Source: a virus
Virus record (IMG/VR): IMGVR_UViG_3300047094_002183
Location: 1 to 64,000 of that record
Length of the DNA stretch: 64,000 nucleotides
Strand: one strand, 5' to 3'
The first letter of the stretch is position 1. Every line of letters starts with the position of its first letter. Position numbers and translations under genes: made by a program. The notes under the pieces were generated by a model. The model had not been told where the DNA came from and made no database searches. It worked only from the letters and a program-made list of their open reading frames with translations. Positions 1-32,146 of the stretch are shown in pieces.

Positions 1-546
1 CTAGTTGACCGACGTGGCGTTGATAACCTTGCGGGGCTTCTGCGGCGCGACCACAGACCGCGCCTTACCTACGCGGGAATACAGGCCAGCGTTATCAGCC
101 GACAGGCAGCGACCTGTCGCCCAGTTGCGCAGGCTTTCGATCTGCTCAGCCGACGTGACCGATACCGGCACGACGTTCTGCGCAGCTTCAAGCAGCGTGA
201 CCTCAAGCAGCGCAGCCAAGCGGCAGCACGACTTGATCTCGGCACCAGTCCAGTTGGAATCGTCCGGCTTGGCCTGCGACTTGTCGATACCGAACTGATC
301 CAGATAGATATCCCAGATCGTCGCGCGCTGTTCGTCGCCCGGCAGATCCACGAAGAAGATGCCGTCGAAACGCTCGGCACGCGCGAACGGCGCCGGCAGC
401 TGGCTGGCGTCATTGCAAGTACCGATGAAAAACACGTCGCTGGTGTGGTCGTTAAGCCACGTCAGCAGCGTACCGAACAGACGGGCACCAACGCCGGAGT
501 CGTTCTGACCAGAGTTGCCGACGCCGGCCAGACCCTTTTCAATTTC
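1..546 (-). CDS. AAA+ ATPase (Ycf46-like), exon 2
   Basis: This is the C-terminal 181 codons of an AAA+ ATPase whose N-terminal exon lies at 1361-2323. It begins with the Glu of Walker B (reading EIEKGLAGVG...), has a sensor-1 region FFIGTCND near positions 435-410, and a downstream RAERFDGIFFVDLP segment typical of the arginine-finger/second-region of AAA proteins. The stop is TAG at bases 1-3. Read alone, the segment has only a GTG at 435 as a start, which would remove the Walker B Glu; joining to exon 1 gives an unbroken 502-aa protein. The resemblance to Ycf46-type ATPases rests on overall pattern and on the neighbouring DUF2997 and DUF1257 genes. Its biochemical job in a phage is unknown. 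Confidence 0.88.
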   Translation of the reverse strand, partial: EIEKGLAGVGNSGQNDSGVGARLFGTLLTWLNDHTSDVFFIGTCNDASQLPAPFARAERFDGIFFVDLPGDEQRATIWDIYLDQFGIDKSQAKPDDSNWTGAEIKSCCRLAALLEVTLLEAAQNVVPVSVTSAEQIESLRNWATGRCLSADNAGLYSRVGKARSVVAPQKPRKVINATSVN

Positions 547-1360
547 CGTTTGTGTTACGAATTAGCCGTTACCGCTAATTCTCCTGTATTTTCATACAGG
601 ACCAGACTATGTCATCTTGTAGCGTAACGTCTCACATTGCATCGGTTGCATAAACCTTTTGACGCGTGTGGTGACGTTGTTAGGCCGCATGAAATACACG
701 CGTTATGTTGCGTGCTCCAGCGGCCACACTTTAAAAGTTTTGGCGTGGCGTATTTTTCTGTGCGTGCAACTTGTAGTTCTGTCTTGTGCTCTAACAAATG
801 ACAGCGTCTACAAACTGTTTCAAGATTATCAAGGGCGTTGTTTGGATTTTTTTTCCCGCGTCCTAAACGATCTTTGTGATGTACGACAAGTTTGTTTTTA
901 TTACCGCAACGAGAGCAGCGCTGCTCATCGCGTGTAATAACTGCAACTCTTTGTCCGTCAAAATGACGCTGTTCGCGATTAATTTTGTATTGCGGCAAAA
1001 TTTCATCGCGATATTTGTCGTACCACTTTTGTTTTAACTTTGCTATACGCTGGCGATTTGCGGCGTCGTTGCGATAGCGAGCCAAATAACAAACTTTGCA
1101 CAGTCCTTTTGCCATATGCGGTTTTTCTGTTTTTGCGCATGTTTGGCAGCAGGAGTATTTTTTTGACCACATTTCAAAACTCTACTACAAGGCCCCCGTT
1201 TCGAGCCCACTTGGGCCCTACGATCTTTCGATCTAGTCGTTGAACCTTCCAAGTGTATTATTACTTGGCTTGGCTGCAAGTTGTCCGGCTTACGCTGAGG
1301 AGTTTCTTGCAATTAAAGGGCTTTGCGCTGATTTGTTGCCAAATCAGGGGACTGAATTCA
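547..1360 (-). ncRNA. group I intron interrupting the AAA+ ATPase gene
   Basis: The 814-nt intron separates codon GAT (Asp321) from GAA (Glu322). The 5' exon ends in T and the intron ends in G, as group I splicing requires. A P1 helix can form in which exon GGAT pairs with intron GTCC (about 1348-1351), placing the splice-site U opposite G. The core is readable on the minus strand: P-like element at 1299-1314, Q-like GACAACTTGCAGCCAAGCC at 1267-1285, R-like GTTCAACGACTAGAT at 1231-1245, and S-like AAGATGACATAGTC at about 604-617, with GACTA/TAGTC forming P7. Two 3' hairpins follow: CCTGTAT/ATACAGG closed by a GAAA loop, and GAATTAGC/GCTAATTC. The HNH gene sits between R and S, i.e. in the P8 region. 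Confidence 0.93.
612..1172 (-). CDS. intron-encoded HNH homing endonuclease with duplicated zinc fingers
   Basis: The 186-aa protein has an HNH core: C86 and C89, His98-His99, Asn116, C121 and C124, then H125/H129. This nuclease type nicks or cuts the intronless allele and spreads the intron. Flanking the core are two related zinc-finger modules, one at residues 9-30 (CxxC...HxAKGLCxxC) and one at the C-terminus (CxxCG...HASKGLCxxC), which look like an internal duplication and probably add DNA contacts. The gene lies entirely inside the group I intron, in the same orientation, and its TGA stop at 612-614 falls inside the S/P7 element, so the last codons double as ribozyme core sequence. Confidence 0.92.
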   Translation of the reverse strand: MWSKKYSCCQTCAKTEKPHMAKGLCKVCYLARYRNDAANRQRIAKLKQKWYDKYRDEILPQYKINREQRHFDGQRVAVITRDEQRCSRCGNKNKLVVHHKDRLGRGKKNPNNALDNLETVCRRCHLLEHKTELQVARTEKYATPKLLKCGRWSTQHNACISCGLTTSPHASKGLCNRCNVRRYATR

Positions 1361-2323
1361 ATCCACAAAAAGAACACAGGGTGCCATGGCGTCGACCTGC
1401 TTGAGGGCTCGGCGCATGTTGCCCTCAGACTCGCCGACAAACTTGCCCATCAGGCTGCCGAAGTCGAGCATTACCGTGGGCCGACCCACTTCGTTGCCAA
1501 GCGCCTTGGCGAACTGGGATTTGCCGCAGCCCGGAGGCGACAGCAGGAGAACGCCCTTGGGTCGCTTGTCGACGTTCTTCTCGCCCTGCCGGCGCATGGC
1601 GCGCAGGCAGAACTGCTTCAGGTTATCCAGCCCGCCAAGGTTCTGGAAGTTGGCGTCGCCGCGATACAGAGTCAAAGTGCCGCTCTTTTCGAGCGTTTGC
1701 GCCTTGATGCTCCAGATCACGTCAGCCGACAGCTTCTTGTTACGGACGAACGAGAGCGCATACGCGTTCTCGGCCTCCTGCCGGGTCAGACCGCGGGAAG
1801 CGTCTACAACCGCCTGCACTTCAGCCTCGGTCGGCTTGGCGAACGCCGGGTCGTCATTGACCAGATCGTTGCAGGTCTTGGTCAGCTGCGCGGTATCGGG
1901 CAGCTCGTGGTGCACAACCGTAAACAGCTTCTCGATCTCGGGCTGAAGCTGCAGAACAGGCGACACGATCACGATATACTGGCCGATGCCCTTGCCCAAG
2001 GCAGCCCGGTTTGCGAGCGTCTGCAGCACCTCGGGGTTTGCTAGAAACCGGTGGAAGTTCTTCAGCACCATCACCATGGGCGGCGAGTTGGGTGGCGTGC
2101 TCTCGGCCAGCTGGGTCAGATACTTCAACGGGTGCAGCGGGCTCGGAGCCGGAACCGCGCCAGAATACAGCTGGCGGTCGATGTCCCACAGTTCAAAGCT
2201 CCACTTGTTGGCGTCCGTCATCTTACGGATAGACGCGATTGCATCGTCGCACTCCAGCGTTTCTACCCAGATGCCGGAGAAGCCAGCGCAGACCAGCTCT
2301 TTGATATCTTTATCGAGTGCCAT
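1361..2323 (-). CDS. AAA+ ATPase (Ycf46-like), exon 1
   Basis: These 321 codons encode an N-terminal domain followed by the first half of an AAA+ module: Walker A SPPGCGKS around residues 262-269, a pore/second-region segment GKFVGESEGNMRRAL near 293-307, and the Walker B strand CVLFVD ending at Asp321. In genomic DNA the reading frame then meets TGA (1358-1360), which lies in the intron; splicing restores the Glu codon at 546. The ATG at 2323 is preceded by AAGGGAACAA. It sits 14 bp downstream of the DUF2997 gene, which in turn follows the DUF1257 gene, so all three are probably co-transcribed. The family (Ycf46) is best known from cyanobacteria and plastids; a chaperone-like role is a guess. 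Confidence 0.9.
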
Positions 2324-2337
2324 TTGTTCCCTTCAGG

Positions 2338-2529
2338 TTAGTTCTGGATTTCGTTCGTCTGGTCGTTGGTCGCGGTGTAATACTCACCGGTAAACGTCTC
2401 GCTCGTCGTGGCGCCCAGCGCGGCTTCAAGCGCACGGGTGGCGTCTTGGCACGAACTGCCGGAGAAGCCGCTGGTTTCAATCTTCGTCTCGCCCTTGGGG
2501 CTGATGGTGATCTGGATAGTCTTTGACAT
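2338..2529 (-). CDS. DUF2997 family protein
   Basis: The 63-aa product opens with TIQITISPKGETKIETSGF, then GSSCQDATRALEAALG, which is the pattern I associate with the DUF2997 family (a small beta-hairpin followed by a helix with a conserved Cys). Function is unknown. In bacteria this family commonly sits beside a DUF1257 gene and a Ycf46-type ATPase, and that is the case here: the DUF1257 gene ends 2 bp upstream and the ATPase starts 14 bp downstream. The context suggests a protein complex or pathway of three partners rather than three unrelated genes. Confidence 0.8.
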   Translation of the reverse strand: MSKTIQITISPKGETKIETSGFSGSSCQDATRALEAALGATTSETFTGEYYTATNDQTNEIQN

Positions 2530-2531
2530 GT

Positions 2532-2897
2532 TTAGAAACCCTCCACGCTGATGTTGAGCTTGATCGAACCGTCGTCCAGCGTCTCCTCGTACACCGAGTA
2601 GCCGCCCTTCTGGGCCTCATAGATGGCCTTCTCGACCGCGTACGCCTGCAGGAACCGGTCCAGTTCTTCCTGCTTGCCCCACGAGCCGTTGTAGTTGTCG
2701 TAATCCAGTGCGCCGGTAGCGAGATTGACAACGACTGGATAATTCCAGTCCTTCAGCTTGACACCAAGCCCTGTGCGCTGAACGCCAAACACGTTGAACG
2801 TGCCGGTCGTGGCAGCCTCAATCCCCAGCCGGCGGCAAGCGGCCTGCACGGCGTCGGCATCTTTCACTTCAGTCTTGATCTGGACAATGTGCGACAT
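2532..2897 (-). CDS. DUF1257 (Ycf35-like) protein
   Basis: The 121-aa product begins MSHIVQIKTEVKDADAVQAA and continues with a GVxLKDWNYPVVVN region and a C-terminal helix-strand part (LDRFLQAYAVEKA ... LNISVEGF). This is the DUF1257/Ycf35 layout and normal length. The function of the family is not established. It is the first gene of the trio with DUF2997 and the AAA+ ATPase. The gene is intact, with no sign of truncation. Confidence 0.82.
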   Translation of the reverse strand: MSHIVQIKTEVKDADAVQAACRRLGIEAATTGTFNVFGVQRTGLGVKLKDWNYPVVVNLATGALDYDNYNGSWGKQEELDRFLQAYAVEKAIYEAQKGGYSVYEETLDDGSIKLNISVEGF

Positions 2898-4621: not shown

Positions 4622-5038
4622 TTATTGGTTGCCGACAACTTTGTCGCGCGGCGCATCTATTGGGGCGCTAGTTGTCAGCACAACATCGTTGTCAGGAATC
4701 TGACAGTTGGGTCCGCGCAGGCGGCCTGTGTTGAGTTCGGGCCATTTTTCTAACGAGTGTATGGCACCCAGAATATTCCACGCGGCGTGACCCAGATGGT
4801 CTTCGTCTTGGTTGCCCGCTAAAAATTTGTACACGTGGGCAATAGCATGATTTAGCAGGTCGCTCACTGGCATGCCGTTTTCCCAATTGTGGGCGCCGAA
4901 TTTTTCAGCTCCCTCGGCGTACGTTTTGGCCAGCGCGTGCAGCCCAATTGGCGAAATCAGATCGTATCGAACGGTATCGCAATCTGCGCTGCGGACAGCG
5001 CCGCTGGCGTATTCATGCCGCTCTTCTGTCATCATCAA
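4622..5038 (-). CDS. DUF5664-like dATP/dGTP diphosphohydrolase
   Basis: The 138-aa protein has the pattern of the DUF5664 / 'dATP/dGTP diphosphohydrolase N-terminal' family: ALAKTYAEGAEKFGAHNW, then a helix with HAIAHVYKFLAGNQDEDHLG and HAAWNILGAIHSLE. The E-x-x-K and E/D-D-H residues are those expected to bind metal in all-alpha NTP pyrophosphatases. Such enzymes trim purine dNTPs; one branch (MazZ) serves phages with 2-aminoadenine DNA, but no PurZ-type gene is visible here. AAGGA precedes the start. The C-terminal 35 residues look like a divergent tail. Confidence 0.75.
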   Translation of the reverse strand: MMMTEERHEYASGAVRSADCDTVRYDLISPIGLHALAKTYAEGAEKFGAHNWENGMPVSDLLNHAIAHVYKFLAGNQDEDHLGHAAWNILGAIHSLEKWPELNTGRLRGPNCQIPDNDVVLTTSAPIDAPRDKVVGNQ

Positions 5039-13421: not shown

Positions 13422-13494
13422 AGCCAGTGGCCGGGAACGATCCGGCGACATTTTGTTTACAAAACAAACGCTCTACCAACTGAGCTACACTGGC
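13422..13494 (-). tRNA. tRNA-Thr (anticodon UGU)
   Basis: A complete cloverleaf is present: acceptor GCCAGTG/CACTGGC (7 perfect pairs), D arm GCTC-AGTTGGTA-GAGC, anticodon arm TTTGT-TTTGTAA-ACAAA with anticodon TGT, variable loop ATGTC, and T arm GCCGG-ATCGTTC-CCGGC. The T loop is atypical: positions 54 and 58 are A and T instead of T and A. The discriminator is T and no CCA is encoded. It lies between the GNAT-like and glycosylase-like genes and likely supplements host decoding of ACA codons. Confidence 0.93.
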
Positions 13495-23132: not shown

Positions 23133-24581
23133 TCATGGGTTTGTTGCTGCCTCTTTAATCGCCGCGCGGAGCACGGCATTTGTTTGAATTGCTGCAACAA
23201 GCTGGCTAATTGTCAGTCCGCCATTTGGCCCCGTCGGCCCAGTCGCGCCAACTGGACCGAGCGGTCCGGTCGCGCCCGCCGGACCCAATACACCGGTAGC
23301 GCCCGTGGCTCCGCGATTGCCGTCGGCACCACGGGGTCCGCTTGGTCCCAGCGGACCTGTGGGGCCTGATGCGCCTGTAGGGCCAGCTACGCCTGTAGGG
23401 CCAGTGCTTCCGGCGGGACCGGTCGCGCCCGTCGCGCCTGTGGCCCCGCTAGGGCCGATAGCGCCGCTAGGGCCGCTGGGGCCGACGGCCCCTGCCGGGC
23501 CGCTTGCGCCCGTTATACCGCGCTCTCCGGGGTTACCGCACGGCCCTGTAGCGCCAGTCATACCTACCGGCCCTGTCGCACCCGTAGCGCCTTCTTGGCC
23601 CGTAATACCGCCCGCACCCTGCGGGCCAGTTGCGCCCGTAGCGCCTGTCTCACTCGGCGCACCGCGCTGGCCGCGCTGGCCGCGCGGGCCGGCCGGGCCT
23701 AAATAACCGCGCGGACCGGTAGCGCCTGTTGGTCCTTGTCGTCCCTCCGGCCCTAGTAGCCCGGGAAAACCTTGTAATCCGGTGGGACCTCGCGGGCCAT
23801 CGGCACCGACAGGGCCAACCGGGCCGGTTGCGCCGGTTGCACCGGGCACGCCATTTGTGCCGTCTCTGCCGGGCACACCTGTAACGCCCGTGCTGCCTGT
23901 AAACCCGCGCGCGCCGGTAGAACCGACAGAGCCGCGGACACCGGTAGCGCCGCGCGGGCCGGTTGGGCCGGTTGCGCCTGTAAGCCCGCGCAGCCCGGTA
24001 GCACCTGTTGCGCCGCGCGCGCCGGTCGCGCCGGTAATACCGTTAATTCCGCGCAAGCCAGTAACGCCCGTAGCGCCGCGCGGGCCGACAAAACCCTGCG
24101 GGCCAGTTTGTCCAGTTGCGCCAGTTGCGCCCGTAGCGCCGCGAGCGCCTGCAGTACCAGTGGCCCCTTTGGCGCCTGTTACGCCAGTTGCACCTGTTAT
24201 ACCGGTAACGCCTGTTGCGCCGCGCGCGCCGGTCGCGCCGGTAATACCGGTGGCCCCAGTAGCGCCGGTAACGCCATCGGCGCCTGTTGCGCCGGTAACG
24301 CCTGTTGGGCCAGTTATGCCCTGCGGGCCGGTTACGCCGGTTGCGCCCTGAATGCCGGTTGCGCCAGTAGCGCCGACAGCGCCAGTAGCGCCGGTAACGC
24401 CAGTGGCGCCTGTTGCGCCGGTAACACCAGTAGCGCCGGGATCGCCTTGCGGTCCGGGTGGGCCGGGCGGGCCGACTGCAGCGCCGCAACCGGCAGATGT
24501 TAGCGGCAAAACCGGCGCATCGAAAGATTGCAGTACGATCTCTTCTTCTTCTGGCTGCGCATTGTCGTTGTTTTCGGTCAT
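23133..24581 (-). CDS. collagen-like protein, 482 aa
   Basis: Residues about 37-455 are uninterrupted Gly-X-Y triplets dominated by [12 protein letters not shown] and GPQ; this should form a collagen-type triple helix. The N-terminal 36 residues are acidic and the last 25 ([20 protein letters not shown]) likely trimerise or attach the rod. Phage collagen-like proteins are usually tail-fibre or virion-surface rods. It lies immediately downstream of the giant fibre (5-bp gap) and shares an identical 51-bp block with it. Confidence 0.9.
23868..23918 (-). repeat. 51-bp block identical to 26408-26458
   Basis: This 51-bp block is identical to 26408-26458 in the other collagen-like gene, and both flanking bases differ. 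The block encodes the same collagen-type residues ([15 protein letters not shown]). Synonymous identity over 51 bp in a degenerate repeat suggests recent gene conversion or duplication between the two genes. Confidence 0.9.
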
Positions 24582-24586
24582 GATAT

Positions 24587-27500
24587 TTATTCCAGCAGCT
24601 CTAATATCAAGGCGCGAAACTTTGCTCGCAACGTCGGGTTAACTGGTTGTCCGTTTGTGTTCAAACCAAGTTGCGTAATTAACGCCGTGGTAAAATCAGC
24701 ATCTGCCGCCAGATTTTTTGTGTTGAACTCTATTGTTGCGCCAATAACTGCGTTATCAACAATTGTAACATTACCCGACAGCACAGCCGGTCGCGACGAG
24801 ATAAAATTATTGCCGACTAACGCAATTTGCGGTCCGGTCGCGCCCTGCGGCCCTGTAGCACCACGGGCGCCGACCGGCCCGGTAATACCGCGCACACCAG
24901 TTGCCCCCTGCGCGCCTGTGGCACCTGTAACACCCTGATTGCCAGTTGGGCCTGTTGCACCACGGACACCGGTTGCGCCTATTTGCCCGTCATTTCCGCA
25001 CGGACCCGTTGCGCCGCTAACGCCACTAGCGCCAGTAGCGCCTATTTCGCCGGCAACGCCCGTCGGGCCAGTGACACCGCGCGAGCCCTGAACGCCCGCC
25101 GGCCCAGCAGCCCCCGGCAGACCCGGAGCACCTCTTTCACCCTCTGGGCCTGTTTCTCCGGCGCAGCCTGTCGCACCAGTTGGACCGATTTGACGCCCGT
25201 CGAGAATAGTATCGAACTTCTGCCAGCCCTTGATGTCGAGTTTTTCTTCCGCTCCGTCAACAATTACTGTTTTTTGGTACGGCGTCCATACGTACGCGAA
25301 CAATGTCGGTTTTTCGATCCAAAAGTCACCATACGTCGGCGAGCGCTGCGGGCGAATCTGTGGTTTGGATTCGTCTCGCGGCGGGTTGTCGTACAAACGC
25401 AGCGGAAAATCTGTTGCGAGGCCCTTATAAAAAATTGGCAGTTGGTCGGGCGGTGTGCGATTTGTTCCGATAAACCAATCGCGCGTTGTCGGATACCGAC
25501 GCGCTGGTGGTTCTGGCGGGTCTTCTGCCGATGGCGGGGGTGCAAGTGGGTCAGGATCGACATCTGGGCGGGCCATGTCCACGCTATAGCGAAGTGTGTA
25601 GTATTCTTCGTAGCGCGCTCGAATTACGTCTTCCGGTACGTATTTCAAACATTCATCGGTGTTTGTAAGATTAATATCAATCGGCCCAATATTGATCCAC
25701 CCGACGCGCGGCGGGTCTGGCAATAAACCGTCGTTCATCGTCCCGATTGTCGAAGTATCGTTGAACCATAAAAACGCGTCGCCGGCTTCGGCCGGGGGTT
25801 GCGCGCCCAATATGACATCTTCCATTGACACGCCGTCGTCGTCGTCGGCTGGTTCCGGGACTGGATTGAGTTGCCGCCGACCAGAGAGCGGGTCTGATCG
25901 GTAGCCTAGGCCTTCGTCCGTAACGACAATCACTGCCCCGCCAACGCTAAAAGGCCCGTAACGATATGTTAGCTCTACATTTTCAACCGTCGGTACTTTT
26001 CTCGTGATGTTACCGACCGTGAGATCCGACAACAGCTCAACGTTTCCGAAAACTAAATAATCATTCCATGTGCCGCGCGTATACAACGCAGCTGCATAGC
26101 CGGCGTCGATCCCGCGGTCGCCCTTGTTGCCCATTGCGCCAGTTGCCCCCCGCGCGCCCGTGGGCCCGATCGGACCAGTAGCGCCGGCGGTTCCTCGCGC
26201 GCCGCGAAGCCCCCGAGGGCCGGTTTGGCCCAGCGCGCCTTTTTCTCCGCGCGGACCTGTCGCTCCGGGCGATCCAGTCAGCCCTCTGTCGCCCTTATTG
26301 CCCTTATCGCCTTTGAGGCCACGCGGCCCAACTAAGCCCGTTACACCAGTTGCGCCCGTTGCGCCGGTAACGCCTGTGACGCCGCGTGGGCCAGCGGCGC
26401 CTGCTGCGCCGGGCACACCTGTAACGCCCGTGCTGCCTGTAAACCCGCGCGCGCCGGTCGCGCCGGTAATACCCTGATTGCCAGTTGCGCCTGTTGCGCC
26501 GCGCGCGCCAACGGCGCCTGTGGCGCCGGTTTGACCGCGCGGGCCTGTTGCACCCGACACGCCTTGGCGGCCTGTCGCTCCGCTTATACCCGTTGCGCCA
26601 GTTGCGCCTGTAACGCCGGTAGCGCCTTGCGCGCCAGTGGCGCCTACGGCGCCGGTTTGACCAATCGGGCCGGTTTCACCAACGACGCCGCTCGGCCCAG
26701 TTGCGCCGCTTATACCTGTTGCGCCAATTGCGCCTGTTGCGCCGGTAACGCCGCTTGGCCCTGTTGCGCCGGTAACTCCTGTTGCGCCTGTTACCCCGGT
26801 AGCGCCTGTAAGTCCTGTTGCGCCACTCGCCCCCATATCTCCTGTTGGACCAATACAACCTGTTGGGCCCGTTGCACCGCGCGGCCCCGCTGGACCCGCG
26901 GGCCCTTGCGGACCAGTTGCGCCGCGGGGGCCGGTCGGACCTGTCGGACCACTAGGTCCGCTTTCGCCCGTCTCGCCCTGCAGGCCTTGCGGGCCCATCA
27001 TACCCATAGCGCCCGGCATACCCATTAAACCGCGCGGGCCGGTTGGGCCAGCGGGGCCAGTAGCGCCGGTCTTACCTTGCGGGCCGGTTGCGCCTCTTTC
27101 ACCTTGATCGCCTTTGCTCCCACCGCCGCCGGTGCCGTCAGACGGACAATCAGTCGTATCTAATGTAACCGTGACATTGACGACGTTATTTTTTATATCT
27201 ACATAACCGCCACCAATTTTTTGACTGCCGCCGGTAACAGTTACTGTGCCGCCTTGTAGCGTGTTTGTCGCGGTGAGTAATTTGATGTCATAAAAACAGT
27301 CGCCGTTTTTATCGCCGCGTGGTGTGATTGATAAAGCACCGCCGGAAATTGGCGTGTATTCTCCACCGCCGGCATACTGTACTGGCGTCGGGTCAATTTT
27401 GTAGTCGCCGGCGCCGAAAATGGGGCACGCTGTAATCGCTTTGACGGAAACATACGGCGTGATTTCCCAACGACAAAGATCCGTTTGCGCCACATTAAGC

Positions 27501-30500
27501 GTTACGGTATTGTCGAGATCTTTACCGGAATAAAGTGTTCCAGTTTTACCAATAATAACTGGAATACACGGTTTGGGAATGCCGAGATTAATGACAACGT
27601 CTGTCGCGCAACTTTGCCCCGGAAAATATGCCGGCGTAATGCTCATGCTGCCGACTGGGTCTGCTGTCGGCGGTAGTGATGTCACATTGACGGCGCCAGT
27701 CCAGATTGTGCACGGCGGCGTCGGTATTTGGATGTCTAAATCCAGTACAACATCGAAGTTACATTGCGGCGGTTCGTTTACGCCGATATTCAGCGTATGC
27801 GTTGGTAAAATTTCAAGCAGCACCGTCGATGCTGCGCCGTAACCGACACGCAAACTTTGATTTACAACATTGATAACCGGGCACGGCGGTCGCGGAAGCA
27901 GCGTGTCAATGTTGATATCAAAGTGATACAGACACTGTCCCGGGTCTCGACAACTTGGGCCGCTGGTGACCGGCGTGATTGCAAGAAAACTACCGGTGCG
28001 CAAAGGCGCAACGTCTTCGTAGCGCGTAAAAAACGTGCCGCTCGTCGACATAGTCGCGCATACCGGCGGCGGAACCGGCACAAAAAGATCTAACGCCAAA
28101 TCAAACGCGCACGTGTCAGGCGTAGTGCACGCCGACGACGGAATTGTTCTTTTTGTGACTGTGAGCTTATTCTGTTTTCCGCTGACGCACGCCGCACCGG
28201 CAAAACCGGTGGTCACTCGCACCTCGCCGCTTTTAATTTCAACGCAGGGCGGCTCAGGGATCGGGATAACAATCGCGAGATCAAGATCAAATTCGCACTG
28301 CGGCGCACCGCAATCAACCGGTGTTTGCCGCGACACGACGCTAAACGAGCTGGACTTACCCGCAACGCACGCCGACCCGGCATACCCACTCCGCACGTCC
28401 AAGCGACTAACATTAATTACTGGGCACGGCGGCGGCGGAATCGGAATGTTTAATTCCAGATCGACGTTGAATTCGCAGTTGTCGACGCCGCACTCATCCG
28501 TAGTCGATGCGTTTATTATTTCAAATTTGCTTGCGCCGAGTCCTTTTGTGCACTGCGTGCTATAAAACACGTTTTGCGCGAAAGTGCGGCGACGAATTAC
28601 CGGGCACGGCGGTTTTGGAATCGGAATAGCGAGTAATAGCTCGACGTCAAATTCGCACTTGCCGGGATCGTCGCAACCTTCCCCGAGTTTATGGTTTGGG
28701 GTTATTGCAAAGTAATTCGATTTACCCACCAATGACGAGCACGTTTCGTAGCCTGTCGTGACATCAAAAGCTGTAAGCCGCAGCTGCGGGCATGGCGCGC
28801 GCGGAATTGGAACGTTCAGCTCCAGTTCGACATTAAATTGGCATTGCCCGGGATCGTTGTGGCTGCTGCTCGGTATATGCTCTGGCGTAATGCGCAAAAC
28901 GTTTTCGCCGTCTGCGCAAGTAACGCCGCCGCCGTCCGTAAACCCAACGGTCATTGAAACCGCTTGTACCGCAATAATAGGGCAGGGCGGCAGCGGGATC
29001 GGGACTGCGATTTTTAGGTCGATATCAAAATCGCACTGGTCGGGCGTATCGCAATTGCCCTGCGTGACGCGCGGTGTAACGGCGAGCCCGGACGTGAAAT
29101 TCTCAAAAATGTTTTCAGGTGTTCCGCCGCTATCACCACCGCCACCACCGCCGCCATTATTGGTGACGCTGCCGCTTTGTATTTGACAATTTGAATCTGA
29201 ATAACACACGTTACCCATAGCCATGTTGTACTGCGCTGATCTGCACACAGCCATTGTCGCGTAGCGCCCAGCCGCTACCTCGCCGGCGCAGTATGTTTCA
29301 ACTTGACGACATTCTGTCCCGTCGCCGCAGTCTTCGCATTCGGCGGGGCGGTATATTAAGACGTATTCGCCCGAACAAGTCGCGCTCTCGCTACTTGATA
29401 CTTTACAATTTGAATCTGCATAACACACCCCGTCTGCAGAAAAACCGCTACTAGCGAGATGTATTCTGCATTGCTCCATTGTCCCGGGTACCACGACGCC
29501 ATTTTCTATGCTGTCGAAGTAGCCGTTCGCCAACAAGGTAGCGCAGTGTTGGTCAATAGAAACACACGTGATCGACGCGGGGTCGCCAACCACGGTGTAC
29601 CTTAATGCATACCCGCCGGGACAAAACTCGACGCCGGCGCTGTTGCTATTGGGATCCGTGAGCGAGAGCTTCGTGCCGCCGCTACTATTACCACCACCGG
29701 CGGCAGTGAAAGAGAGCTTTGTGCTGCCGCCACTAGTGCCGCCGCTGCCACTGACGATGTATCCGCTGCGTACGTCAACATTTATAACGTTGAGATTTGG
29801 GCACGGCTGTCGCGGGATTGGAACTTCTAAATCTAGCTCAACGTTAAAACGACACTCACCCGGATCATCACAGTCTGTGCCCGGCACGTGTTCGGACGTA
29901 ATGCTGAATTTATTTTTTCCTGTGAAGCACTTACTATCGGAATCGTTTCCGATAAAGCCAACAGTTAACCCAAAATTTTGCACGCTGATAACTGGGCACG
30001 GCGTGCGCGGAATTGGGACTGCGATAGCAAGATCGACATCGAAGTCGCACTGGTCCGGCGTATTGCAATTGCCGACAACAATTCTCGGCGTAATGGTGAA
30101 TGCTGGCGTGACGCCATAGAGGCACGAATTTTTATCGTTAATATCTGCCGGTTGAAATCCGCTAACTACAGTGAAATTGTTAACAAAAATATTCGGGCAC
30201 GGTTGTTTCGGAATTGGAATGGCGAGTTCCAGTTCAACATCAAATTGGCACTCATCTGGCGTGTCGCAGCCGCCCGGAATAATGGTCGGCGTAATGGCGA
30301 AGCGCGTGTTCTTGCCAAACAAGCACTTATTGTCTACGCCGATTTCGGCGTCGGCAGCTGCAAAACCGACAGACACGTCGAACGTTTTTGTATTAATTAC
30401 GGGACACGGTGGGCGCGGAATAGGGATAGCCAGCGCTAGGTCTACTAAAAAATTGCACTGGTCGGGTTGATCGCATTCGCCCTGTATGTGCTCTGTTGTG

Positions 30501-32146
30501 ATTTCAAATTTTTGTTCGACGCCAGTAAAACAAATAGCGTCGTCATACGCCGTAACGACGTCGAAACTGTTGACATTAATAACTGGGCAAAATTGCCGCG
30601 GCAGCGGCAGAACGACCTGCAAATCAACGTCAAAATTACACTGATCTGGATTGTTGCAATCTCCGGGTACGATCGTTGGCGTGATGCGAAATTTACTGTG
30701 TTTTTCTTCTGCGTCGCGAACTTCGCCAGTACAACTGTTGCCTATCGTTACGAGCGTGCCGTTGTAGGCTGTAATTTCTGGCGAGACCGGCATCCACGGA
30801 ACAACCTCCGCGCCGCTAAAATCACCGTCGGGCACCCACCAACCGCCAACACCCCACGGGTCGGGCGGCGGATAAACGATACCGGCGCCGATAGTTCCGG
30901 TTATTACGCCCGTGCCGGTTATCAAAGCATTCTGCGGGCCGGTATAGAAAGCGTATTGGGTTGTCGCTTGGTCGCAATCTGGCGGATATAGCGGCAGACC
31001 TTCGTCGTCCAATAGCTCTGCGCACGGACAGCGCAAGCTAGCCGATCCGTTGAACGAGTTTAAAAGCAGATTTCCAGTGCAATACCACAGGGTTCTTACG
31101 ATGTAGCAACCGTCGTCGAACGGCACGCTAATTTTATTTACTGGCCCAACAAAACATTTAATATCTAGCGGGTAATTATTTTCGTCGTACTCGCGGCCCG
31201 TAAAACCGGCGTTGACTTTAAAATTACTGATATTAATGTCGGGGCAGGTTGGCGCTGGAATTGGAATAAGAATTTCCAACTCAACATCAAAACGACACTG
31301 GTCAGGCGTACTACAGCCGTCGCCAAAAATATGCACTGGCGTGATGCTGAAATTATTGGCGCCATTTTCAAGGCAGAGATCCTTGGAGTAGCCGCTTGTA
31401 ACGTTAAACTTAGTAAGATTAATTGACGTACACAACGGTCGCGGGATCGGCACGACTATGCTTGCGTCGATATCAAAGTTGCATTTATCGGGTAGGTCGC
31501 AGCTGCCCACTTCGATGCGCGGCGTAACGGTAAAAAATGCTTTTTTATCTATGCAGCCCGGGTTGCCGTCGTACGGCGCATAGCCGGCGAGTACCTCGAA
31601 CGAATTTACATTGATTCGCGGGCACTCCGGTGTCGGAATTGGGACGTTGATCTCTAGATCTAAACTAAAATCACATTCGTCTAGCGTAGAGCAGTCGCCA
31701 ACCGTGACATTTTTTTGAACCAGAAAACGCGATGGCGGCAATGGGCATTTGTCGTACGCTACCGCAAAATTAAATGCGCCGATAGTTACATTGGGTGCGC
31801 ACGGCGGTTTTGGAATCGGTATCGTGAGATCAAAGTCGAGGCTGTACGTACACGGGTCTATATCTTTTTTATCAAGTGTGATTACCGCCGCAGCGGGGCC
31901 GATATTACACGGGTTCCCGTTGCCGCCATCCGCGTACCCAAGGTTTAGCGTCGCGGTGGCGAGAAATACGGGGCAAGTTGGGCCAACGTCATCGGGCGGC
32001 TCGGGAGCGATGAACGGCGCAGTACAGCCGTAGATCGGTTTTGGCGCCGGCGGAATGTTGCACACGTCAAGCGCGATGAAATTGAAGTCGGCTTTTGGCA
32101 CGGCCTCAATTGGACAATTAGAGTCTTTGAACAAGTTTTCTGTCAT
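24587..32146 (-). CDS. giant modular tail fibre with collagen segments, 2519 aa
   Basis: Residues about 90-1500 hold about 17 copies of a 65-80-residue repeat, each with CxxPDxCxFDVxLxIxxPIPxPPCP followed by INVxxFDVxxGY: three Cys and a PIP-x-PPCP strand per unit. One unit has a 110-residue Cys insertion, and after the ninth copy two copies of a CxVCYxDSNCxxxSG module are inserted. A collagen-like segment spans about 1675-2013, a globular region about 2014-2317, a second collagen segment about 2318-2440, and a C-terminal helical domain about 2441-2519. The architecture is that of a long fibre; receptor binding is inferred. Start ATG 32146 follows GAGCGGA. Confidence 0.88.
26408..26458 (-). 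repeat. second copy of the 51-bp collagen block
   Basis: Identical to 23868-23918, located in collagen segment 1 of the giant fibre. See that entry for the likely origin. Confidence 0.9.

Follow-up and report, generated by a model that had tools for sequence, protein, structure and literature searches.

To our knowledge, Ycf46, Ycf35 and DUF2997 are old names whose function is unsolved. A full-text search of open papers on the family names of the module described here returned no mechanism. In cyanobacteria, the published cluster consists of DUF2997, ycf35 and fed7, the last encoding a ferredoxin (PMC4284462), and ycf46 (slr0374) belongs to a different operon (PMC7496141). Synechocystis lacking Ycf46 is cited as having lower activity of the carbonic anhydrase EcaB (Jiang et al., 2015, cited in PMC7496141). 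An initial annotation of the DNA studied here described the three families as common neighbours in cyanobacteria: the published chromosomal clusters, which carry DUF1257 (Ycf35) and DUF2997 without Ycf46, do not agree, but a Planktothrix plasmid does have an AAA ATPase of the same type beside DUF1257 and DUF2997, near ParA and a replication protein. Two further systems invite comparison: the two-ring ATPase Cdc48/p97 and the AAA/DUF3150-like/VWA triads of Burkholderiales plasmids.

The phage locus lies at one end of the window, by which is meant the whole 64,000-nucleotide stretch that was analysed (IMG/VR virus record IMGVR_UViG_3300047094_002183, positions 1 to 64,000). Its features are:

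2532..2897, minus strand: DUF1257 gene, 121 aa (PF06868, E=2.9e-5; PHROG 20456)
2338..2529, minus strand: DUF2997 gene, 63 aa (PF11211, E=5.6e-18; PHROG 23133)
2323 down to 1, minus strand: AAA+ ATPase gene, split by a group I intron
1361..2323, minus strand: ATPase exon 1, with an AAA domain that lacks a P-loop, followed by Walker A and by Walker B as far as ..LFVD
547..1360, minus strand: group I intron, 814 nt (RF00028; empty sites in relatives)
612..1172, minus strand: HNH homing endonuclease ORF inside the intron (PF01844, 2.9e-6; HNH PHROGs)
1..546, minus strand: ATPase exon 2, with sensor 1, arginine fingers and lid; its stop codon is the contig end

Read on the minus strand, the genes run DUF1257-DUF2997-ATPase, and profile searches confirm both DUF identities. 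The DUF2997 match is full-length (positions 1-47 of 47; 65 bits against a cut-off of 24.1). DUF1257 passes its curated Pfam cut-off narrowly (24.6 bits against 22.2), a score backed by relatives and by a predicted-fold match to a viral protein, and the window protein begins MSH, as the family does. A tblastn search with the window DUF1257 found no match in known phages; divergent relatives nonetheless exist. The spliced ATPase matches the AAA family (PF00004, E=2e-27, 96.6 bits) and PHROG 8638 (1e-82), and all three PHROG families of the trio are of unknown function. Neither Pfam nor NCBIfam returned a Ycf46 model for this protein; the name "Ycf46-like" describes an architecture only, and the Planktothrix plasmid ATPase is the only cyanobacterial one compared. 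Upstream of the module, the window also encodes a dATP/dGTP diphosphohydrolase-type protein that is conserved across related phages (4622-5038; PF18909, E=1.2e-16).

The intron reported in one of the three genes is borne out by Rfam (RF00028, 72.2 bits against a cut-off of 50) and by empty sites in relatives. These empty sites also set its ends: at this point the intron-less relative L004 reads TTTGTGGAT directly followed by GAAATTGAG (FVD, then EIEK). Cutting out 1360..547 joins LFVD to EIEK within Walker B, and the resulting translation is 502 aa long with no stop. Introns occupy the same site in L002 (100% identical), L003 (100%, cut short) and, at about 83%, L018, L026 and L029. Judged from these sequences, the ATPase intron probably splices.

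With the ATPase stop codon the contig comes to its end, and the coordinates above therefore cover only part of a larger unit. In L002, a sister contig of the window that is identical over the shared genes, and in nearly all related phages, the ATPase is followed by a gene that we call F4 (~315 residues) and then by F5 (~85 residues). The conserved unit is five genes, with the window trio as one end; the trio proposed as a working module is indeed conserved and repeatedly phage-borne, but it is not the whole of the unit. The order DUF1257-DUF2997-AAA-F4-F5 is the same in the related phages and in 10/10 loci fetched from Planctomycetota genomes, several of them on megabase-length contigs; the ATPase frame of one Planctomycetota locus (L120) is broken into two ORFs. 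All told, carriers of the unit comprise L002, about 40 related phage contigs of up to ~205 kb, one plasmid from Nitrospirota and chromosomes from Planctomycetota. The Manganitrophus plasmid (CP114559) has all five genes in the order AAA-DUF1257-DUF2997-F4-F5, and its F4 is annotated as DUF3150. A divergent phage homologue of F4 (L048) matches DUF3150 as well (PF11348, 31.3 bits against a cut-off of 24.9), the near-window F4 of L004 has no match in Pfam, and F5 falls in no Pfam or PHROG family. In the cultured phages SM1, HJ05, L338C and Tunturi_3, F5 also stands behind DUF2997. Among the cultured phages, F4 can be recognised in Tunturi_3 only; in the rest, an unrelated protein of ~200-240 residues lies between ATPase and DUF1257, and hhalign gives no support to the idea that it is a diverged F4. 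Behind F4 in phages there is also a protein with hexapeptide-like (left-handed helix) repeats (L004 9773-10777; L015 9653-10606), which in L004 matches PHROG 5070, of unknown function.

The five-gene unit can now be set against two of the described systems. With the cyanobacterial and plastid proteins it shares the DUF1257 (Ycf35) and DUF2997 Pfam families, and it differs in having F4 and F5 in addition. The Burkholderiales triads contain a DUF3150-like gene homologous to F4 (profile E=1e-31) and are likewise borne on mobile elements: on a Burkholderia plasmid the F4 homologue has another AAA protein on one side and a VWA protein on the other, and the PRTRC genes for ThiF and protein A are several kb away. 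However, the AAA protein of the triads is shorter and does not match the window ATPase profile, and its partner is the VWA protein, whereas the phage unit has a Cdc48-like ATPase with DUF1257, DUF2997 and F5.

The trio is widespread in phages. A scan of viral contigs for DUF1257 found 48 loci, many on contigs of 120-205 kb; all three genes are present in 46 of them, and the other 2 contigs end inside the module. Together with cultured phages of Rhodobacter, Agrobacterium, Rhizobium, Pseudomonas, Aeromonas and Tunturiibacter, in which the genes are mostly annotated "hypothetical", these loci answer positively the suggestion that other phages be surveyed for the trio. The cultured phages with a divergent trio are RcTiptonus, JP1, L338C, SM1, HJ05 and Tunturi_3. 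Several of the cultured-phage DUF1257 and DUF2997 genes exceed the Pfam cut-offs, and the DUF1257 of RcTiptonus and JP1 is recognised by the custom profile of this analysis only. The HJ05 type of DUF1257 is found in 17 phage records, one of which was already annotated as such. A relative of the ATPase also occurs in Mycobacterium phage Catdawg and in Vibrio phage KarBoss, where neither DUF1257 nor DUF2997 lies within ~8 kb of it. Plasmid copies are found on Thermovibrio pTHEAM01, Planktothrix p4 and the Manganitrophus plasmid. Upstream of the trio in L074 and L068 lie genes that by eye are TnsB-, TniB- and TniQ-like, which suggests a Tn7-like element.

Among cells, the module is found chiefly in sequences assigned to Planctomycetota. 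Seventeen loci from metagenome-assembled genomes have the same gene order at 45-59% identity; 16 are labelled Planctomycetota and 1 Nealsonbacteria, a single odd label that points to imperfect binning. Of 199 Planctomycetota genomes, 18 have DUF1257, 31 have DUF2997 and 62 have the first domain of the ATPase, and these sets are nested; the ATPase is thus also found without its small partners. Within 3 kb, DUF1257 and DUF2997 are linked at 19/19 places, DUF1257 and ATPase at 18/19, and DUF2997 and ATPase at 32/37. Such nesting would arise by chance with a probability of ~1e-17 if the genomes were independent, but they are related and the figure is a guide only. A chance neighbourhood of the three genes is ruled out by their linkage in unrelated phages, plasmids and chromosomes. 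In a maximum-likelihood tree of the ATPase, the 30 large-phage copies form one clade (100/100) beside Planctomycetota rows; the cultured phages group apart from it, and L046 pairs with the Thermovibrio plasmid, on long branches. The nearest relatives of the phage module are Planctomycetota loci. Since the root of the tree is the midpoint, transfer from Planctomycetota to phage, and a Planctomycetota host, are plausible only. The module is best read as a mobile-element set shared with Planctomycetota.

What the module might do is suggested by the ATPase, which was modelled from its intron-less relative L004 (92% identical to the window ATPase; AlphaFold, pLDDT 85.4). Residues 1-494 of the model align with D1 and D2 of p97 (7lmz_C, Z 25.4, 454 residues), the best PDB fold match, followed by Cdc48, Drg1 and NVL. 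The second AAA ring alone already reaches Z 23, and the first-ring match, which sits inside the whole-chain alignment, adds only modest weight. The helix-strand order of the first domain does mirror that of the second in the model. Compared on its own with PDB sequences, the first domain gave nothing significant (the best sub-threshold match, to a subunit of replication factor C, had E=0.16). Among 87 relatives, none has the canonical GxxxxGK[S/T] loop in residues 1-200, and the looser G.GK[S/T] appears there in two copies of one row (one genome) only. By contrast with this lost P-loop, the second domain is catalytically complete: the Walker A lysine, D321, E322, N366, R377 and R380 are nearly invariant among the 87 relatives. 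Of these, 83 have F or L at pore-loop position 295, and in large-phage ATPases the first G of Walker A is replaced by S (SPPGCGKS). From the two-ring alignment with p97, the mirrored domain order and the motifs, we read the ATPase as a Cdc48-like tandem AAA protein with a dead first ring and a second ring that keeps every catalytic residue.

The likeness to Cdc48/p97 thus covers two AAA domains per chain, complete catalytic residues in the second ring and, in pore loop 1, a residue that is hydrophobic or aromatic. The ATPase is not, however, a member of the Cdc48 family: the p97 N-domain is absent (the first residue of the model corresponds to p97 residue 210), the first domain lacks a P-loop, and the NCBIfam CDC48 score of 86 bits is far below the cut-off of 802.65. 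The partners encoded by the module are also unrelated to Ufd1-Npl4. Membership of the IetA/IteA anti-phage ATPases was rejected too (NCBIfam IteA, 55.7 bits against a cut-off of 510).

The DUF1257 protein is predicted to adopt an alpha/beta fold (AlphaFold, pLDDT 86; order b-a-b-b-b-b-a-b-b). Its model has one significant viral fold match (A0A7S5REL3, E=3.8e-5, TM 0.70), which supports a predicted fold shared by the window DUF1257 and another viral protein, itself probably a phage DUF1257. The fold search in the PDB returned no significant match (the best, at Z 5.4, is a common arrangement), and nothing significant was found for DUF1257 or DUF2997 among PDB sequences. In DUF2997, a G-x-x-G-x-x-C motif (G21, G24, C27) is invariant across 27 relatives.

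We consider it fairly probable that the five-gene module encodes an ATP-driven protein remodeller of the Cdc48/p97 kind, an unfoldase carried by mobile elements. The remodelling role put forward by the initial annotation is favoured by the ATPase model and motifs; for the RNA- or energy-sensing role offered beside it, nothing was found. The first AAA domain would probably act as a scaffold or docking ring, and the second would thread or pull protein through the pore of a hexamer. DUF1257, DUF2997, F4 and F5 would dock on the ATPase as substrate-selecting or handover subunits, standing in for the N-domain and cofactors of p97. Because DUF1257 has no significant PDB fold match, it is linkage that suggests these adaptor roles, including substrate selection by DUF1257 and DUF2997. 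As a guess, the phage might benefit if the machine unfolds a protein complex of its host or of a rival, allowing the element to establish itself or replicate. The names Ycf35 and DUF2997, and by architecture Ycf46, are now joined in one mobile unit with a tandem-AAA motor and two further partners; with a definite motor, further partners and genes that can be deleted in cultured phages, the question of function becomes testable.

The neighbours of the module bear on this reading and on its rivals. Near the more distant Planctomycetota trios (L096 3113-12613, L113, L107, L108, L109) are NrdG-like radical SAM genes or Hsp70-like, GrpE-like and HEAT-like genes, both kinds being present in L096 and L113. 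The Hsp70-like and GrpE-like genes provide a protein-handling context and count for an unfoldase, but a pure unfoldase does not explain the NrdG-like genes, nor the cyanobacterial ferredoxin beside DUF1257-DUF2997. Among the flanks of the closest Planctomycetota copies, those of L122 and L123 contain a type I restriction methylase, joined in L123 by GmrSD; L124 has a helicase that matches SNF2/ResIII, and L120 has an OLD-like ATPase. Such flanks, the weak IetA similarity of the AAA domain and the carriers (phages, plasmids and the locus beside genes judged Tn7-like by eye) fit a defence or counter-defence module that blocks rivals or disarms the immunity of the host, its ATPase acting as a sensor or as an effector motor. 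We regard this as unlikely, if still credible, since no partner resembles any known effector, the IteA score falls well short, the copies in cultured phages are close to replication genes and that of the window is close to structural ones, and other Planctomycetota trios are outside such islands; defence genes nearby may merely mark a mobile region.

A remodeller for DNA replication, or for plasmid or phage maintenance, would account for the position of the trio in cultured phages, where DnaB helicase and DNA polymerase are encoded a few genes downstream of it, and for the ParA and replication protein near the Planktothrix trio. Several Planctomycetota loci (L119, L121, L122, L123, L124, L128, L065, L059) also continue with all or part of an alternative cassette of F6, F7 and a PD-(D/E)XK nuclease. 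Yet F6 resembles the DnaN sliding clamp by eye only and has no Pfam match, F6-F8 were found in no phage locus searched, and the window copy neighbours structural genes, which makes this role quite unlikely. Highly improbable, in our view, is a carbon/energy or redox regulator of the kind proposed for cyanobacterial Ycf46 and Ycf35, borrowed by phages as a metabolic set. The EcaB effect cited above and the fed7 ferredoxin next to DUF2997-ycf35 speak for it; but the closest relatives are in Planctomycetota, plasmids and phages rather than cyanobacterial chromosomes, and no ferredoxin or carbon gene was recognised around the phage copies.

No lead is more striking, or less certain, than the ubiquitin-like company of the module. 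In three Planctomycetota loci (L070 11311-14041, L120 2063-5001, L127 10956-13764), the five-gene module is directly followed by genes for ThiS-like, Cys-rich, JAB and ThiF/E1 proteins, and L073 has DUF1257, DUF2997 and part of this cassette. The ThiF/E1 match has E=1e-22 in L070, the JAB protein is just under its cut-off (about 8e-5), the ThiS-like protein is under cut-off in the two loci tested (E=0.003-0.011), and the Cys-rich protein is RING-like by eye only. No E1 (ThiF) was found in 15 phage records, which may be fragments. Beside the unfoldase module, the ThiS-like protein would supply the ubiquitin fold, the Cys-rich one would be RING-like, JAB would be the protease and ThiF the E1-like enzyme. 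This run prompts the doubtful reading that phages carry only the unfoldase half of a bacterial p97-ubiquitin-like system, using or hijacking tagged substrates. If functional, the cassette would be a bacterial parallel of p97 and ubiquitin.

In two Planctomycetota genomes, a contractile tail-sheath-like gene lies ~5-7 kb from the trio (L101 16656-17918, L102 16176-17435), and a link to an injection system is possible. The window itself also carries a tRNA gene at 13422-13494 on the minus strand (RF00005, 66.6 bits). Its stretch 23133-32146 encodes two tail-fibre-like proteins, of 482 and 2519 aa, which match many PHROGs of the collagen-like and fibre kinds.
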